Shown in pieces: positions 12,032 through 52,092 of a stretch of DNA of 64,000 bases (positions are counted from its first letter, which is position 1; each line of letters opens with the position of its first letter). The position numbers were made by a program, and so were the translations under genes. Under the pieces are notes generated by a model, which was not told the origin of the DNA, did not search any database, and saw nothing but the letters and a program-made list of their open reading frames with translations. The stretch covers positions 248,001 through 312,000 of the forward strand of contig JHUT02000001.1 in NCBI GenBank assembly GCA_000690595.2, in the 5' to 3' direction. Source of the stretch: Natrinema mahii (GTDB lineage Archaea > Halobacteriota > Halobacteria > Halobacteriales > Natrialbaceae).

Positions 12032-12281
12032 GACTACAGTTAACAGACAGCACAACACCCATTAGAAGCGTTCATAGTTTCATCGTATGCAACACATTTA
12101 TTCCGATATCACTACGAGCTGCATTTACGGAATTGAAACCCAGTATATGGTGGTAAACAACAACCACTGATTAGAACGTGGCACCGATCCGCAATCACCT
12201 GTTTCGACCAGGGGTGGGAGTACTCCGCGTGCAGAAACGGACTGGTTCCGTTTCCAATCGAACTGAGCGAACGCGGCGCGG

Positions 12282-12905
12282 TTACTCGCCGAGACCGTAC
12301 CGGTCGGAGACGGTTCGCCACCGATCACGCAAGAGCCCGTCACCGGCGAGATGCGTTAGGAATCCGACGAGGAACGCTCCCCCACAGAGCGCGCTGGTCC
12401 GGACAACGAGTCCCGACGGCAAGCCGGTGCCCTCTAACAGCAAAACGACGACAGTCGTCAGGCAAACGGCGACGGTCATCCCGGCCGAAATCCGATGTGT
12501 CACCGTTCGATGGGACGGACGGAGTCTGGGGAAGAGACGACTCGTCGCCCACCAACCGACCCAGAATACCGTCGCGACACTCGCTCCGGCGACAAACAGA
12601 GGATCGACGCCTACCGAGATCGATTCAACGGCGGTGATCGCTGCCCCACCGAATTTGAGCGTTAGACACGTCGCGACGGCCGCTGTGGCCGGCGGTACGT
12701 ATCGAGTCGCGAGCCGGTACGGGCGCGCATGCGGGTGATCGATATCGGGAGCGACCGATCCGACGAGCGTAATCGGGACGACGGCGAGTGCGACGACCAG
12801 CGTCTCCTCCCGCAGGGCACCCAGTAGGTAGGGTATCCCGAGGGCGGCAACGAGCAGCGCGTGAGCGCTGATTCCGTGTTGTAGGTGCCGTTCGAAGTCA
12901 GTCAT
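12282..12905 (-). CDS. Membrane-bound metal-dependent hydrolase (DUF457/YdjM type)
   Basis: A 207-residue protein with about five hydrophobic helices and the family's dispersed histidine/aspartate motifs: LQHGISAH near the start, VAPDIDHPHARP (about 52-63), PSHRTVTHR (about 130-138) and LTHLAGDGLL (about 185-194). The family is annotated as inner-membrane metal-dependent hydrolases, but substrates are unknown. It lies 117 nt downstream of the two-helix membrane protein on the same strand, so it may be the last gene of that unit. A distant relative of the same fold is at 62577-63161. Confidence 0.8.
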   Translation of the reverse strand: MTDFERHLQHGISAHALLVAALGIPYLLGALREETLVVALAVVPITLVGSVAPDIDHPHARPYRLATRYVPPATAAVATCLTLKFGGAAITAVESISVGVDPLFVAGASVATVFWVGWWATSRLFPRLRPSHRTVTHRISAGMTVAVCLTTVVVLLLEGTGLPSGLVVRTSALCGGAFLVGFLTHLAGDGLLRDRWRTVSDRYGLGE

Positions 12906-13022
12906 CGTGTCCCTCCGCGTCCGCTCGCCGGTCGTACTCTGTTCCGTGGTCCGTCGTCACTCATTGTCCTGTCTCTCCGTTCGGAAAACGCCGTTCCGGC
13001 GGCTCGGCTCCCGCCGGCAGTG

Positions 13023-13643
13023 CTATTCGTCGTCAGGGCTGATCGTGGTCCGTTTCCGTCTGCGTTCCTCGCTCGAGAGGCTCCCCTCCCGCAGGTTCGT
13101 CTGGCCAGCGTGGCGGTCCCTATCGGGTTCGCCCTCGACCGTCCTGGGCTGGTCCGTTCCGGTCCGGTCGCAGTCCCCCTCGTCCCGCGAGACGGGATCG
13201 TCGGTCGTCGTTCCGCCGACGATCCGCTTGCCGCGCCCACTGTCCGAGCTCGGCTGTTCAGACTCGGTTTCGTGCTGGGTCCCCGGCCGTTGTGGCACCG
13301 CCGACGCCCCGGTTTCCCGGGAGCCCGCGCGAACGTCACTCGAGCCCTCGAGCGTCCGGCTCGAGGCTTCGGCCGAATCGCTCGCGTCGTCGATCCCGCC
13401 TCCGGGATTGGCACCCGATCGCAAGGCCGCAGCGATAGCACTGATCGTCAGGAGGATCGCCAAGCCTGCGGTGACGGCCACGACGACTGACATGGGAAGC
13501 GCCGCCGGCAGGACGACGCTCGTATAGACGATCCACGTCGCGACGGCCAGTGCGGTACTCGTTGCTGCTGCGATCACTGCCCACGCAGCGAAGAGGCCGG
13601 TCCAGACTGTCGATTCGGTCGTGAAGGTGCTGTTGAAGTTCAT
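13023..13643 (-). CDS. Two-helix membrane protein with a long charged tail, next to the tubulin-like gene
   Basis: A 206-residue protein with hydrophobic helices at about 13-40 and 44-73, then about 130 residues of low-complexity, charged and probably disordered sequence (repeated SSD, GSRE, RTG and REGS-type segments). No domain is recognised. It begins 29 nt after the stop of the tubulin-like gene on the same strand, so the two are probably cotranscribed. A membrane-anchored protein with a flexible tail beside a cytoskeletal GTPase suggests an anchor or scaffold, by loose analogy with ZipA or SepF; this is inference. Confidence 0.7.
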   Translation of the reverse strand: MNFNSTFTTESTVWTGLFAAWAVIAAATSTALAVATWIVYTSVVLPAALPMSVVVAVTAGLAILLTISAIAAALRSGANPGGGIDDASDSAEASSRTLEGSSDVRAGSRETGASAVPQRPGTQHETESEQPSSDSGRGKRIVGGTTTDDPVSRDEGDCDRTGTDQPRTVEGEPDRDRHAGQTNLREGSLSSEERRRKRTTISPDDE

Positions 13644-13672
13644 TGAGTATCGTCCTCGTTTCGATCTCGCGT

Positions 13673-15172
13673 TCAGCGGCCACCCCGACCCAGCGTTCGC
13701 CGTTCGAGGCGGCCGTGTTCCTGTTCGATTCGCGCGCGGTACGGCGAGGCGACGTCCTCGAGGCAGGGGTAGGCCCAGACGGCGAACTCCTGATCACCGA
13801 CCGGGAATCGCTCGAGACCTTCGACGGCGTGGATCCGGATGTCGCGTTCCCCGATGTGACGGGGCAGTTCCCCGCTCAGACGCGCCGGGAGGGAGAGCCA
13901 GTTGACCCCGTTCAGGTCGAAGTCCCGGGCATGGAGGAAGAAGTGGTACTTCTTCAACGCGTCTTCCCGGTGTGGCGCACCGACCAGCAGGGAGGCGACC
14001 TTGGCGACCGAACTCAACACGATGTCGAGGTCGCCCTCCGAGACGTCTTCGGGGATGTCCGAGTGGACGTAGTAGCCGTTGAGGTCGGCGACATCGTCGA
14101 CCCCGAAGTAGCCAGGGGAGACGATTTCACCCTCGAAGGCCGCCCGAACCTCGGCCCCATCGAAGACGTTGGTCATGTCCTGCAGGAGCCGCACGCCCGG
14201 CAGGTTCGCCCGACTGGCCAGCAGCGGAAGCATCGCGGTCTGGATCATTTCGTTGCAGGCCGCCGGGACGCTGGTGTGTGGGTAGCCCAGTTCCTGATAG
14301 AGATCGGTGAACGGGTCGTTCACGGGGTTCAGCCGGTGTTCGCCGATACGGTCCTGAAGCGTCCGGACCGGAACCGGGTTGTGATTGACCGCCTGCATCC
14401 CGAGGGTGTGGGAGTTCGCCAGCACGAACAGCCCCTGGTAGTGTCCCTCCTGCAGGGCCTTTTGTGCCCGCTCGAGGCCGAACGCGGTGTTGTCGTACGA
14501 GCTGTCGATGTCGGCGTCCAGATACGCCGCCTGTAGGTCGGCCCGCCAGGAATCCTCGTCGGCGGCACCCCCGGGCAGCCCCAGCGTATCGATATCCCCG
14601 ACCGGCCCCAGCGGTCCGACCGCAAGCGCGTAGATCTCCTTGGTTTCGTCGCGATCGAACAGGAGCCCGCGCTTCCGGAGTTCCGGAATCATCATCAGCC
14701 CCGCACCGCCGTTGCCCCCGGTGATCCCGGCGCTGAGGAACAGGACGTCCGGAAGATCACCGGACTCCGTCGAGAGGTTCTCACGGAGCAGGCCGACGAA
14801 GTCATCTGGATCGTCGATCATCCCCAGCATCACGGCCGGGGCCTTTCCGGCTCCCTCAGCGTCGATGACGATGGTCCGGTTGGCGGCTACCTGGTCGACC
14901 TCGAGGGGCAACTGGTCGTTCACGTCGTCGATCGAATTGGGATCCGAATCGACGAAGCTGACCAGATACCGGGTATCACGGTCGGTCGAGAGCGCGGGCG
15001 TGTTGCTCGTGATGTCGAGGTTCTCCGCACACAGCTGACCCGAGTCGGCGAGCAGCCGGATCACGCTGGCAGCGACGTTGACACCACACTCACCGAACGC
15101 GACGTGTCCGACGGTCCGTTTGTGCGGTTTTTCGTTCGATGCTCGGTCGGCGATGGATTCGTTCGTATTCAT
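13673..15172 (-). CDS. Divergent tubulin/FtsZ-superfamily GTPase-like protein
   Basis: A 499-residue protein carrying the tubulin nucleotide-binding pattern in the correct order: N-terminal T1-like VGHVAFGECGVNVAASVI (21-38), T3-like DAEGAGKAP (104-112), T4 signature variant SAGITGGNGGAGLM (147-160; compare GGGTGSG) and a helix-7-like YDNTAFGLERA (226-236). It is longer than FtsZ or CetZ (about 360-420), and the canonical T4 GTG core is changed to GNG. It could be a filament-forming GTPase or an inactive relative. The start MNTNESIADR at 15172 follows a purine-rich GGGAGGAA about 30 nt upstream. It heads a probable unit with the membrane protein at 13023-13643. Confidence 0.78.
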   Translation of the reverse strand: MNTNESIADRASNEKPHKRTVGHVAFGECGVNVAASVIRLLADSGQLCAENLDITSNTPALSTDRDTRYLVSFVDSDPNSIDDVNDQLPLEVDQVAANRTIVIDAEGAGKAPAVMLGMIDDPDDFVGLLRENLSTESGDLPDVLFLSAGITGGNGGAGLMMIPELRKRGLLFDRDETKEIYALAVGPLGPVGDIDTLGLPGGAADEDSWRADLQAAYLDADIDSSYDNTAFGLERAQKALQEGHYQGLFVLANSHTLGMQAVNHNPVPVRTLQDRIGEHRLNPVNDPFTDLYQELGYPHTSVPAACNEMIQTAMLPLLASRANLPGVRLLQDMTNVFDGAEVRAAFEGEIVSPGYFGVDDVADLNGYYVHSDIPEDVSEGDLDIVLSSVAKVASLLVGAPHREDALKKYHFFLHARDFDLNGVNWLSLPARLSGELPRHIGERDIRIHAVEGLERFPVGDQEFAVWAYPCLEDVASPYRARIEQEHGRLERRTLGRGGR

Positions 15173-15215
15173 TGGTCGCAGAGTCGTCAGTCGTTTTCGC
15201 ACCGTTCCTCCCGGT

Positions 15216-15232
15216 CGTAAGCTGGGCTTACG
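15216..15232. promoter_or_regulatory. Perfect palindrome CGTAAGC-TGG-GCTTACG, candidate operator
   Basis: Seven-base arms with a 3-nt spacer, 44 nt upstream of the tubulin-like ATG. With no upstream gene on that strand a terminator role is unlikely, so a dimeric regulator site or a 5'-leader hairpin is more plausible. Confidence 0.5.
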
Positions 15233-15275
15233 TTCCGTATGTCTGCAATTACAACTGAGGGATAATAAATGTATT

Positions 15276-15302
15276 GCGTATACAGCCTCTTCTGCGTATA
15301 CA
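15276..15302 (+). promoter_or_regulatory. Direct repeat GCGTATACA x2, candidate RHH operator
   Basis: Identical 9-mers start 18 nt apart, and a partial third (TGCGTA) begins at 15317. Ribbon-helix-helix dimers bind tandem short direct repeats, and the adjacent gene at 15391 encodes an RHH domain, so autoregulation is plausible. The core GTATAC is itself a palindrome. Confidence 0.5.
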
Positions 15303-15390
15303 AAGATAGAGTATAATGCGTAATCAGTATCTTAGAAATAGTAAATACTAATTACGAACGTTCAAGGGAAAGGAGAAGAAACGGCCGAGC

Positions 15391-16764
15391 ATGTCCAAAG
15401 TCGTACAGACCAGAGTCGAAAGCGATCTCCAGAACCGAATCGAGGAGAAAGCGGACCAGCGCGGTGAAACCGTCTCCGAGTTCGTCCGTGGGATCCTCGA
15501 GAACGCGATCGAAGCCGACGACGACACGACTCCCGGGCTCAAATCGCGGCTCCGCCGCGACCTCGACGAGATCGGGGCGACCGACGACGAACGGGGCGTC
15601 GCGGACGCGATACGTGAGGACACCTGGGACCAACTCTCGCGTCCCGCGTTCCGATCGGAGGTACGGAACGCAATGCTCGAGACGGCGGGCGTCGTCTACG
15701 TCGCCGGACAGGGGTCGTCGCGCTCAGTCGGTCACTGGCTCATCGGCCGCTTGCAGAACCATGGTCGGCAGGCGATCGTCAACGCCGCGGAACCGCTGCT
15801 CTCGGCACCGATCGAGTCGGACGATGTCGTCGTCCTTGTCTCACAGAGCGGCGAAACCGACGCCTGTCTCGATCTCGCCGAGTACGCGGCAGACCGGGGC
15901 GCGACGGTCGTCGGCGTGACGGCCCCGGAGTCGTCGATCGCCGATACGTCCGATCTCTCCGTGCCGCTACCGTCGGTCACCGAACACGTCTCACAGTACG
16001 CCACGAAGAGCCTCATCGCACAGGTGACGACGCTTCAGACGGTGTTGTTCGACGAGGACCCGTCCCTCGAGCAGATCGAAGCCCGATTGGACGCGCTGAC
16101 CGCGTTCGTCCGAGACCAGTTCGACGACGGGGAGTTACGCGACGCGAGTCAGTTCAAACGCGCCGCTGCAGTACTCGAGGAGTACAACGAGACGGCGCTG
16201 GATCCGATCGTCGCGTCGGCCGGAACCGGCCATCGGTATGGGATCGAAGCGGCCCAGAAATTCACCGAGTTCTTATATACGAACCCGACGCACGAACACA
16301 TCGGTAGCGTCCGAGACGGGGCACTCAACCTGCTTTTCGACGAGAGTGCGTATCTGTTTACGATTCTCCCGCCGCGCGACGAGCGAACGCCGACCGATCC
16401 GTGCGCGGAACACCTCTTCGTCGGCGAGAATGCGATCATTAACGAGTTGCTGTTCAAGACGAACGCCGGCGGGAGCCTGACACCCCGACTTGTCGCGATC
16501 GCCCTCGACGAGACCGACGATGACGAGACCGACAGCACGATCGAGCAGATCGGTCACCAGTCGATGTACGGTGAAGACGGTGTTATCCTCCTCTCACCGG
16601 AGACGTACGTCGACGGCGCGGTGTCGACTGACGACCTCTCGCGGTCCACGATCGACCTGTTCGTCTACGGGAGCGTCTTCCTCTTCACGTACGCGTTACT
16701 GAACCAGCGCTGGGATACGGACCGACAACTGCGCAGGACCATCATCAAGCAGACCTACGCATGA
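15391..16764 (+). CDS. Ribbon-helix-helix / double SIS sugar-isomerase-fold fusion protein
   Basis: A 457-residue protein. Residues 1-42 are an RHH (CopG/Arc-type) DNA-binding domain (VVQTRVESDLQNRIEEKADQ, SEFVRGILENAI). Residues about 95-220 form a first SIS domain with GQGSS (106-110) and SQSGET (151-156), the sugar-phosphate loops. Residues about 265-420 form a second SIS-like domain (SAGTGHRYGIEAAQKFTE at 276-293). The layout resembles the GlmS isomerase half without glutaminase, or an RpiR regulator with RHH replacing the usual HTH. It is likely a sugar-phosphate-responsive regulator. The stop overlaps the methyltransferase start (ATGA). Confidence 0.85.
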   Translation: MSKVVQTRVESDLQNRIEEKADQRGETVSEFVRGILENAIEADDDTTPGLKSRLRRDLDEIGATDDERGVADAIREDTWDQLSRPAFRSEVRNAMLETAGVVYVAGQGSSRSVGHWLIGRLQNHGRQAIVNAAEPLLSAPIESDDVVVLVSQSGETDACLDLAEYAADRGATVVGVTAPESSIADTSDLSVPLPSVTEHVSQYATKSLIAQVTTLQTVLFDEDPSLEQIEARLDALTAFVRDQFDDGELRDASQFKRAAAVLEEYNETALDPIVASAGTGHRYGIEAAQKFTEFLYTNPTHEHIGSVRDGALNLLFDESAYLFTILPPRDERTPTDPCAEHLFVGENAIINELLFKTNAGGSLTPRLVAIALDETDDDETDSTIEQIGHQSMYGEDGVILLSPETYVDGAVSTDDLSRSTIDLFVYGSVFLFTYALLNQRWDTDRQLRRTIIKQTYA

Positions 16765-17414
16765 GCGTCCACGACGACTGGGAGACCTACTTCGAGCAGC
16801 AGTTCGACGAGCGCGATCCGTGGTCGTTCGAAACGTCCGGCTACGAGCGGACGAAATACGAACGCCAGCTCCGGGTTATTCGGGACCACCATCCCGGCCC
16901 CGAACGGATCCTGGAACTCGGCTGTGCAGAAGGAGTGCACACCGAAATGCTCGCCGACACGTTCGACGCCGAGGTTGTCGCGGTCGACATCAGCGATACC
17001 GCCATCGAACGCGCCCGGGAACGGATCGACGACCCTCGCGTGACGTTCGTCGCCGCCGACGCGCTTGAGTTCGTCGCGGAAATCGACTCACAGTTTGACG
17101 TGATCGTTTGGAGCGAATTGATCTACTACCTCGGCGATAAACGGAGCGTCCCGGCGTTCTTCGACTACATCGCCACCGTTTCCGACCGTCTCCGCGAGAA
17201 CGGGCTCCTCTGTCTGGCAAACATCATCGACCAGAGTTCCGGACGAGAGGCCGCCCTGACCAGAGCGCCGGTCATGGACTGTTACGAGACCATGCTGTCG
17301 GCACTGCTCGAGCGGGTCCATCGGGCGACCTACACGGAATGGAAGGCCGAGTCCGATTCCCGGTACGAGTATGCTGTCTGGGCGTTCAGGCAGGGTGAGG
17401 AAACCAATGGATAA
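16761..17414 (+). CDS. NodS-like SAM-dependent methyltransferase
   Basis: A 217-residue class I methyltransferase with motif I ILELGCAEGVHTEML (about 50-64), an acidic motif after the second strand (VVAVDISDTAI), motif post-II VTFVAADALEFV and motif IV FDVIVWSELIYYL. The fold and the WSELIYYLGD motif resemble NodS and related small-molecule N-methyltransferases. Its ATG overlaps the RHH-SIS stop by 4 nt, so it is translationally coupled and probably acts in the same process, perhaps on a sugar or amine metabolite. The substrate is not evident. Confidence 0.82.
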   Translation: MSVHDDWETYFEQQFDERDPWSFETSGYERTKYERQLRVIRDHHPGPERILELGCAEGVHTEMLADTFDAEVVAVDISDTAIERARERIDDPRVTFVAADALEFVAEIDSQFDVIVWSELIYYLGDKRSVPAFFDYIATVSDRLRENGLLCLANIIDQSSGREAALTRAPVMDCYETMLSALLERVHRATYTEWKAESDSRYEYAVWAFRQGEETNG

Positions 17415-17680
17415 CGACATCCATCGGCTCCTCGAAACCGCCCCGAATCGACTGCGCTCGAAGAAACTCGGGCGCGCCTCGAGCCGAGTGTCGAAGATGG
17501 CAGTTCCCGTGAACGAGCACTCGACGCACTTGCCGAAGCCAACGGCGACCGCTGCCTGAAATGTACGACCACGGCGACCGCGGATGAGCAACGGCTCCCG
17601 TCAAGAGATCGGTGCCGGCGGGACCGGCGGCCCCGCGGACTCGAACCGTCGACGCCCCTCGAACGGATGCGACGATCGGG
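17407..17680 (+). pseudogene. Frameshifted remnant of a small gene downstream of the methyltransferase
   Basis: The ATG at 17407 overlaps the methyltransferase stop and opens a 50-codon frame (MDNDIHRLLETAPNRL...). Protein-like sequence then continues in another frame from about 17456: ALEETRARLEPSVEDG, then RERALDALAEANGDRCLKC. This is coherent haloarchaeal sequence with a CxxC that looks like half of a zinc site, and no complete gene remains. It is best read as a decayed third gene of the RHH-SIS unit; the right boundary is approximate. Confidence 0.45.
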
Positions 17681-17801
17681 CGGGCTGAGTCGATCGAACT
17701 CGTCCGCGCCAGCGTGACGCCGTTCGAGTCCGGCGTCAGTCGGTAGCGAACGACCATCAATGCAGCCGCCGGCGGCCCGAGCATCCAAAGAGTGTCGCGC
17801 C

Positions 17802-49845: not shown

Positions 49846-50415
49846 ATGGGACTCGAGGAGCAACGCGACGTCGAAACCGACGTGTACCAACCGGCCGAGG
49901 ACTCGCAACTGCTGGCCGAGGCGGTCTGTGAGCGACTCGAGGGGGCCGAGCGCGTCCTCGAGGTCGGGACCGGCTCGGGCTTCGTCGCCGGGCGGATCGC
50001 CGCCGAGACCGACGCCCGCGTGATCGCGTCGGATCTGAACCCCCACGCCGTCCGACAGGCCCGGGGTGAGGGCGTCGAGACGGTGCGTGCGGATCTGGTC
50101 TCGCCGTTCCGCGACGGGAGTTTCGACGCGGTCGCGTTCAACCCGCCCTACCTCCCGACCGATCCGGACAACGAGTGGGACGACTGGATGGAACACGCCC
50201 TCTCCGGCGGCGAGGACGGCCGGGCAGTCATCGACCCCTTCCTCGAGGCGGTCGGCCGGGTCCTCGCGCCTGACGGTAGCGTCTACCTGCTCGTGAGCAG
50301 CCTCACCGGCGTCGACGAGGTCGTCGAACGGGCCGGCGAGGAGGGCTTCAGCGCCGTCGCCGTCGCCGACGAGTCGTTCCCCTTCGAGACGCTGACGGTA
50401 CTCGAGTTACATTGA
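49846..50415 (+). CDS. HemK2/MTQ2-type protein or RNA methyltransferase
   Basis: A 189-residue class I methyltransferase. Residues 10-22 (ETDVYQPAEDSQL) match the HemK2 N-terminus, motif I is VLEVGTGSGFVAGR (37-50) and the NPPY active site is at 99-102 (FNPPYLPTDP). The group methylates the glutamine of the GGQ loop in release factors. It immediately follows mscS, an arrangement also seen with KsgA in archaea. Confidence 0.92.
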   Translation: MGLEEQRDVETDVYQPAEDSQLLAEAVCERLEGAERVLEVGTGSGFVAGRIAAETDARVIASDLNPHAVRQARGEGVETVRADLVSPFRDGSFDAVAFNPPYLPTDPDNEWDDWMEHALSGGEDGRAVIDPFLEAVGRVLAPDGSVYLLVSSLTGVDEVVERAGEEGFSAVAVADESFPFETLTVLELH

Positions 50416-50524
50416 CGGTTTGGTACGGACACGATAAGATTGCAGCCCCATTAATAAGTTAACAACTTATACTATAATTCTAGCAGTTAATTATATGAAC
50501 GCCATGTGTAATAGATAAGATGCA

Positions 50525-51612
50525 ATGAGAGAATCGTAAACAGAAGAGCAGTCTTAAAATCACTTGGCGCAACTACTATTGCAACACCACTGATTGGTAA
50601 TGTGGCTGCTCAAGAGCGTATAGGCTCGGAAGACGCATTATTAACAGGCACGATTGATTCTCCGATAGATCCAAACGAGATCAAGGACGAGCAGGAGGAC
50701 TCCTTAAAGGCTGCTGTGCACCAGTCTTCTAAACAGACAGATGTAGCAACAATCAACCTACGCAAGGGGGAAAGTATCGTATCATATTCTCATACGATTG
50801 CCGAAGATGGCGTACCAAGAATCTACTTCGGAACAGTACCGAATCATAAAGCAGATTCTGGGATTCAGACAGCATCTAGCGAAGTAGATAAAAAAGAAAC
50901 AATTCAAGAAAAACATAATAGGGCGATAGAAAACTTGGAAATCACTCAAGATCAAGCATCCATCCAAACCCAAGCACAAACTCAGGAGTCATTTGTTGAG
51001 CATGATGAAGATTGGATGAGAACAATACGAAGCACCCACGACTCTGGTAGTTGCCCAGACGGAACTATGACGACTGTTTATGAAGCTTATACTCAGACTG
51101 ACTTGGATAATGATAATAGAGGGATTATGACTAGAGCACTTACCTATCCTGGTGCTAGTAAGGAATGTGACAACAATATGGGATTTGGGCATGAATTAGA
51201 CTTAGCACATCGCTGGGACAATAATGACTCAGGAGTACCAAACCCTACAATAACTGACCGGAGTGCAGAAGAAGGAGAGGGGGAAAGCAGTGGTTCTATC
51301 ACGCTGACGTATGCTGGGGCAGGCCTCTCAGTACCTATGAGTGGTCCTGATACTGAGATGACGGATAATTCAACTAGCGATCAGGCTGCGTGGGATTATG
51401 CTATTTCACAGAGTAGTGATGCAAGCAATGAGGCTAGCACACATACAACTGGTTCTGTAGCAGAATGGGATGATCTACCAGGAGACTCCCAATATGTTTC
51501 TTTAGATGTTGACCTCGAAGTAATGTATTGTGATCTTGTTGTCCCTATTCGTGGTTGTACTGGTAGGTCATTTGAAAAATTTGGTTCTGTGATTGATTTA
51601 TCCACTACATAG
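50525..51612 (+). pseudogene. Tat-signal secreted protein with a frameshifted start, in the AT-rich island
   Basis: The frame from about 50539 reads NRRAVLKSLGATTIATPLIG, a twin-arginine signal ending VAAQE, followed by about 330 residues of low-GC, hydrophilic, Ser/Thr/Asp-rich protein with four cysteines (CPDG, KECDNN, YCDL, IRGCTG), ending at 51612. The ATG that would start it (50525) is one base out of frame; inserting one A near 50531-50534 would restore MREIVNRRAVL. Internal initiation at the in-frame GTG (50602) would lose the signal. Domain unknown. A sequencing error remains possible. Confidence 0.65.
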
Positions 51613-51677
51613 GACCCAGACGGTAGATCTTCTAACGAAAATATTTTCATGTGATCACACACACACACAACTCATAT

Positions 51678-51824
51678 ATGATATCCAGTCTTTCGATAAT
51701 AGATCTTGTAACAACCATAGTCATATTATTTAGCATTATATATATGGCTGTGTATTTGGCAGTGAAATCAGCACTAAGGGAACATCGACAAGAAAAGATA
51801 GATAACACTGACGATGAAAAGTAG
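51678..51824 (+). CDS. 48-residue single-pass membrane protein in the AT-rich island
   Basis: ATG 51678 to TAG 51822-51824 encodes MISSLSIIDLVTTIVILFSI, continuing through a hydrophobic helix (about 9-30) into a charged C-terminus with a run of K, E and D. Codon use matches the AT-rich neighbour, not the chromosome. It lies 65 nt after the secreted-protein ORF on the same strand and might be its partner. Short, so moderate confidence. Confidence 0.5.
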   Translation: MISSLSIIDLVTTIVILFSIIYMAVYLAVKSALREHRQEKIDNTDDEK

Positions 51825-52092
51825 AATGCGAAAATATGATTTTGGTTATGATTGGGCCAGATAATTAAGCCTATTCAACACTACTGTACCCGTAATATAA
51901 TTGGCGATTTTACTAGTAGATCAGATAGTAATCATAGGGAATATACTCATGGTGTGGGGTGCTAGAATTAAAATTTATATTGATGATATTTTTAACACGC
52001 TTTCCCCCCTGTCAGGATGTTGTTCGAATTACTGTAGCACATTAGATCGGATAGAAAATATTAAGCGTCGGCATAGCCTAGCCGACCCTACG

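Follow-up and report, generated by a model that had tools for sequence, protein, structure and literature searches.

Within a 64,000-nucleotide stretch of the Natrinema mahii genome (contig JHUT02000001.1, positions 248,001 to 312,000; hereafter the window), we identified a ~5.5-kb inserted block of five genes arranged as two divergent arms in this 3.79-Mb haloarchaeal genome. We consider it reasonably likely that this block is a horizontally acquired, self-regulated island in which a controller, made up of a ribbon-helix-helix (RHH)-SIS regulator and a methyltransferase, is joined to interchangeable cargo acting on the cell envelope. The island and its genes are as follows, in window coordinates.

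12241–17793, no strand assigned: inserted island, ~5.5 kb, with an uncertain right edge (~17760 to 17794).
12282–12905, minus strand: YdjM-like metal-dependent hydrolase, membrane-bound, last of the three left-arm genes (PF04307, E=5.4e-7).
13023–13643, minus strand: small membrane protein of 206 amino acids, carrying hydrophobic segments and ending in a tail of ~131 polar residues that is probably disordered.
13673–15172, minus strand: probable divergent tubulin-superfamily protein, 499 amino acids, ATG start, G-box GGNGGAG (PF00091, E=0.0049).
15173–15390: divergent control region between the tubulin-like gene (minus) and the RHH-SIS gene (plus).
15391–16764, plus strand: RHH-SIS regulator, 457 amino acids, with an N-terminal RHH-like segment and a GlmS-like double-SIS region (SIS PF01380, E=1.5e-13).
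16761–17414, plus strand: NodS-like S-adenosylmethionine-dependent methyltransferase (PF05401, E=5.4e-21).

An earlier sequence-only reading had described the region 12282–17680 as four genes. All four open reading frames lie about where it placed them and resemble true genes in codon-position composition, with third-position GC content (GC3) across the island of 0.70–0.82 vs 0.85–0.89 for the neighbours, but that reading omitted the YdjM-like gene, even though the start it gave, 12282, is the end of this fifth gene. The island therefore separates into an RHH-SIS/methyltransferase arm on the plus strand and a three-gene operon on the minus strand, encoding the tubulin-like, membrane and YdjM-like proteins. 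DNA searches of the genus's 28 remaining genomes revealed that in five of them (G064, G075, G060, G065 and G077) the sequence left of the island (ending at 12240) directly abuts that on its right (starting at ~17794), and because these congeners lack the intervening DNA, the five genes constitute one block. G064 and G075 are the nearest congeners (92–93% and 87% identity; 92.8%/87.0% for G064), with flanks ~195 bp apart. No integrase, transposase, clean target-site duplication or tRNA-end integration was found. The simpler reading of these alignments is a single insertion, with gain preferred over loss since several lineages have an empty site and the remaining family lacks both the tubulin-like protein and the full-length RHH-SIS regulator.

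The distribution of the controller was assessed in 391 genomes of the class, an even draw, capped in number, from the larger class. Full-length RHH-SIS is encoded by five of the 391 class genomes, namely the window genome and those of 4 of the 15 Haloferax species, among them H. marisrubri, H. prahovense and H. gibbonsii. In all four Haloferax genomes the RHH-SIS gene is followed by the methyltransferase gene in the same tandem order (34% and 50–51% identity to the respective window proteins), so the coupling of regulator and methyltransferase that the sequence-only reading had noted is a conserved pair. That reading had gone further and proposed a candidate four-gene system including the tubulin, naming confinement of the adjacency to one strain as the result that would speak against it. 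For the tubulin part this is what the co-occurrence survey returned: the tubulin-like gene stands beside RHH-SIS in one genome and the Haloferax pair diverges from other membrane genes, leaving a fixed four-gene system unsupported. Further family matches to RHH-SIS (23–33% identity over residues ~110–337) were not counted as relatives of the regulator, as they fall in 600–700-residue frames that look like GlmS.

The region between the two arms, correctly recognized earlier as a shared control region, carries a tandem operator-like repeat next to a putative promoter element.

15262–15269, minus strand: TATA-like element TTTATTAT, adjoining the operator and facing the tubulin gene, with a presumed promoter role.
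15276–15284, plus strand: operator copy 1, GCGTATACA.
15294–15302, plus strand: operator copy 2, GCGTATACA, at a spacing of 18 bp from copy 1.
15318–15326, plus strand: putative degenerate third copy, GCGTAATCA.

The Haloferax divergent regions contain the same GCGTATACA pair at a spacing of 17 bp and oriented alike with respect to RHH-SIS; it is present at all four loci, with one change in the outer copy in two species. Exact pairs (spacer 5–11) occur in 3 of the 391 class genomes, those of the window and of two Haloferax, each time at RHH-SIS, whereas a reversed control pair gave no match in the same 391 genomes. The window genome holds a single pair site even when three mismatches are allowed, and none of 20,000 dinucleotide shuffles produced a 9-mer repeated within both divergent regions. 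Seven viral contigs displaying the operator pattern were dismissed as chance matches, given that they encode no related protein and come from a very large collection. Since the two regulators share just 34% identity, selection has most likely preserved the GCGTATACA pair, and the natural inference is that RHH-SIS binds its own tandem operator. At the Haloferax loci the operator copies flank a TTTATAT element and in the window the pair adjoins TTTATTAT, placements that at both loci fit promoter control.

We then compared both proteins of the controller with known families. The SIS portion of the regulator scores 51 bits against PF01380 (cut-off 25), and the double-SIS region matches GlmS, 3-hexulose-6-phosphate isomerase and phosphosugar isomerases, with residues ~110–337 aligning to haloarchaeal GlmS-sized frames (600–700 amino acids) and residues 138–315 to GlmS in the PDB. 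A DNA-binding SIS fusion had been predicted for this gene; its SIS half is secure, but its N-terminus gives weak RHH/NikA-like matches (E 0.001–0.05, with NikA-like and RHH_5 at 0.001–0.002, below their cut-offs), and it is the conserved operator that supports a DNA-binding role for this segment. Membership of the MurR/RpiR family was not indicated, as the protein has no helix-turn-helix match in Pfam and carries the RHH-like segment instead. The methyltransferase, whose ATG overlaps the RHH-SIS stop by 4 bp, was rightly called NodS-like: it scores 75.8 bits against PF05401 (cut-off 24), and its closest solved structure is NodS 3ofj (E=1.1e-12). It falls outside the NCBIfam NodS equivalog for nodulation N-methyltransferases (76 bits vs a cut-off of 300). 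None of the papers searched joins a SIS domain with ribbon-helix-helix in haloarchaea.

In Haloferax the controller stands opposite a different operon, which encodes a membrane protein of 328–355 amino acids, a 383-residue protein and an 847–894-residue protein with one hydrophobic segment. None of these resembles the window cargo and none has a significant Pfam match. Because controller and operator thus front a different membrane operon, the cargo appears to be interchangeable. The 894-residue protein (L078:12185-14869) has its hydrophobic segment near the N-terminus, a long linker of low complexity and, in its C-terminal part, an HSHP-x7-S-x2-D motif resembling that of JAMM peptidases, a reading without Pfam support. 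In Haloferax the module, too, is an insert, ~7.4 kb long and variable. At the corresponding site (L126, L127, L128) one congener has ~440 bp, and two have an unrelated MMPL-type transporter with a TetR-like regulator.

Relatives of the window cargo arrangement were found on haloarchaeal plasmids. The YdjM-like protein scores 29.7 bits against PF04307 (cut-off 29), and its putative metal ligands D54, D56, H57, H132, H137, H185 and D189 are invariant across four proteins, as are the PDxDH and HRTVTH residues. Its best plasmid relative, at 45% identity, lies on Halarchaeum sp. CBA1220 plasmid pCBA1220-01, where the order Tubulin_2 (826 amino acids, PF13809 E=2e-15), membrane protein, YdjM matches that of the window. 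Plasmid p117 of Halorubrum sp. BOL3-1 (L141:2145-5595) bears what looks like a disrupted version, in which an IS5 transposase precedes a remnant of such a tubulin (its coiled-coil end), a 38% identical membrane protein and a YdjM gene in two pieces. These plasmid clusters lack RHH-SIS. Owing to the shared gene order and the YdjM relatives on the Halarchaeum and Halorubrum plasmids, the cargo arm resembles a pre-existing plasmid cluster, of which it is probably a variant. The small membrane protein has closely spaced hydrophobic segments at residues 17–35, 31–49 and 53–71, which amount to two stretches (17–49 and 53–71), in agreement with its earlier description as a two-helix protein with a disordered tail, and matched nothing in the family libraries searched. 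On a Natribaculum luteum plasmid (L145), a YdjM relative adjoins a repeat-rich 2335-residue protein, and close by are a vWA protein and a ThiF-like adenylyltransferase. None of the papers searched joins YdjM with tubulin and archaea.

Taken together, these features suggest how the island might operate. RHH-SIS would bind the divergent promoter at the GCGTATACA tandem and probably repress transcription both ways, of the cargo genes as well as of its own operon with the methyltransferase. Repression would be lifted once the double-SIS domain meets a phosphosugar-type ligand, a class suggested by its matches to GlmS and phosphosugar isomerases. The translationally coupled methyltransferase probably modifies the ligand or a sugar product, thereby tuning the signal. 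NodS N-methylates a glucosamine unit, and an amino sugar is our guess at the substrate because of the NodS match. Once derepressed, the cargo would act at the cell membrane as a tubulin-like scaffold, a small membrane anchor and a YdjM-like metallohydrolase. Filament formation, and with it the metabolic control of a filament suggested by the sequence-only reading, is conjectural.

Several observations weigh against this reading. The intact two-arm combination was seen in one genome, so the functional coupling of the arms may be accidental; similarity of the RHH segment to the RHH families of Pfam is weak; and AlphaFold gives a poor model of RHH-SIS (mean predicted local distance difference test score (pLDDT) 43). 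In addition, pairwise comparison finds no resemblance of the window tubulin-like protein and small membrane protein to the Tubulin_2 and membrane proteins of the plasmids, such that YdjM and gene order alone tie the window cargo to the plasmid clusters. One alternative is that the arms are independent: the RHH-SIS-methyltransferase operon would serve the metabolism of sugars or glycans and regulate itself only, and an accident of insertion would have put the tubulin operon, under promoter control of its own, alongside it. This would account for each arm occurring elsewhere without the other and for the lack of a second genome with the combination. However, the entire stretch was gained or lost as one block, the operator sits centrally in the shared region beside the TATA-like element that faces the tubulin gene, and the Haloferax controller is likewise divergent from a membrane operon; we therefore regard independence as unlikely.

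We also weighed whether the self-regulated island serves in anti-virus or inter-element conflict, with the RHH-SIS-methyltransferase pair sensing metabolic disturbance during infection and derepressing membrane effectors, upon which growth stops or the virus is blocked. The effectors would be the tubulin-like scaffold and the YdjM hydrolase in the window, and the membrane protein and JAMM-like protein in Haloferax. Sporadic distribution, insertion, exchangeable membrane effectors and tight self-regulation are all in keeping with such a role, as are the hotspot character of the Haloferax site, with other inserts in other species, and the pairing of a membrane segment with a JAMM-like motif in the 894-residue protein. 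We nevertheless consider this role quite unlikely, given that PADLOC returned one generic methyltransferase-domain match (mad2) and matched no known anti-phage system, that no recognised defence gene lies within the island, and that Pfam does not bear out the JAMM motif. A PHROGs search yielded nothing informative.

The identity of the principal cargo protein required closer inspection. The tubulin/FtsZ-like label attached to it earlier is probably right but is weak at the level of families: PF00091 is the sole Pfam match of the 499-residue protein (residues 22–156) and reaches 17.6 bits against a curated cut-off of 33. When profiles of haloarchaeal FtsZ, CetZ and divergent tubulins were used, the T4-S5 element (PDVLFLSAGITGGNGGAG ... 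EIYALAVGP) scored 34–35 vs 21–24 for shuffles. In one of these comparisons the element, taken as the T4 G-box (itself non-canonical) with flanking S4/H4/S5, scored 34.0 vs a maximum of 21.0 over 100 shuffles, and in another test its score of 31.0 compares with a maximum of 22.2 among 110 unrelated window reading frames. Sub-profiles of T1, T6 and H7-T7 did no better than shuffles, and a stretch GVRLLQDMTNVF, matched by eye alone, is possibly the H7/T7 region. A hidden Markov model (HMM) of canonical haloarchaeal FtsZ/CetZ did not separate the protein from shuffles, and a search that recovered five canonical FtsZ/CetZ genes elsewhere in the host genome did not recover it. It does not group with FtsZ1, FtsZ2 or CetZ, whose canonical box is GGGTG[ST]G, nor with FtsZl1/Tubulin_2, as it has no PF13809 match. 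No relatives were found in 125 family, 391 class and 295 phylum genomes or in plasmids, phages, viral contigs and genome contigs; phylum matches at E ~1e-3 (family f29) were rejected as chance and by eye resemble class I fumarases. An AlphaFold model from single or shallow input was poor (pLDDT 36). Independent support for the label comes from gene order, since the gene takes the tubulin position in the tubulin, membrane protein, YdjM series. That the protein is no tubulin homologue and its G-rich motif a chance likeness in another Rossmann-like protein would agree with the sub-threshold PF00091 score, the silent FtsZ/CetZ HMM, the low pLDDT and the shuffle-level H7-T7, T6 and T1 sub-profiles, but is improbable in view of the exclusive PF00091 match, a T4-S5 signal far above both shuffles and real reading frames, and the slot that the gene occupies. 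We conclude that it is probably a remote member of the tubulin superfamily with a non-canonical G-box.

Other tubulin-superfamily proteins were encountered outside the island. Congener G065 has a cluster of three divergent tubulin-superfamily open reading frames (408, 465 and 531 amino acids; L116:8463-18645) interleaved with long proteins, some of predicted membrane or coiled-coil character. Genome G074 encodes a 1077-residue tubulin-superfamily protein with a long coiled-coil-like region (L117:7372-10605), resembling the described FtsZl1 organisation. Elsewhere in the window, GC content drops to 0.465 at 50001–52000 vs ~0.66 around it, which suggests a foreign insert.

The island shares traits with several known systems and departs from each. 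Regulators of the MurR/RpiR type join a DNA-binding N-terminus to a phosphosugar-binding SIS region and control an adjacent operon. RHH-SIS appears to have the same plan, joining a DNA-binding-type N-terminus to a SIS region, but its DNA-binding part is RHH-like rather than helix-turn-helix, its SIS region is a GlmS-like double unit and its partner is a methyltransferase. The FtsZl1/Tubulin_2 (PF13809) membrane-remodelling systems (Makarova and Koonin 2010, PMC2875224) likewise place a non-canonical tubulin-superfamily protein beside membrane-protein genes, and the Halarchaeum Tubulin_2 cluster is identical in order, with a 45% identical YdjM. The window protein, however, is shorter (499 vs 826 amino acids), lacks the coiled-coil extension and has the G-box GGNGGAG vs GGGTG[ST]G, and the island has no vWA, kinase or OmpA gene but does carry RHH-SIS and the methyltransferase. 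Control of ftsZ2 by CdrS/CdrL in haloarchaea (PMC7439475) resembles the proposed arrangement in placing a gene of the tubulin superfamily, with its dedicated promoter, under an RHH regulator. The CdrS-ftsZ2 operon, however, serves cell division and is conserved widely, whereas the window locus is an island of sporadic occurrence that includes a sensor domain and a probable tubulin of high divergence. For the methyltransferase, the N-methyltransferase NodS (PDB 3ofj/3ofk) is the best match in both family and structure, although its equivalog score is far below threshold and no nodulation genes are present.

The regulator-operator pair, conserved between proteins of 34% identity, is directly testable, and the island places a very divergent, probable member of the tubulin superfamily in a membrane operon that is mobile and regulated. 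More tentatively, and with considerable doubt, RHH-SIS and the NodS-like methyltransferase with their GCGTATACA operator may represent a portable sensor-controller placed on interchangeable membrane effectors, tubulin-like/YdjM in one case and JAMM-like in the other, and hence self-regulated islands of a class not yet described, devoted to conflict or to remodelling of the envelope. Should the controller prove portable, the operator would offer a handle for locating further islands of this kind, and the tubulin cargo would widen the range of archaeal cytoskeletal-type proteins beyond cell division and shape.

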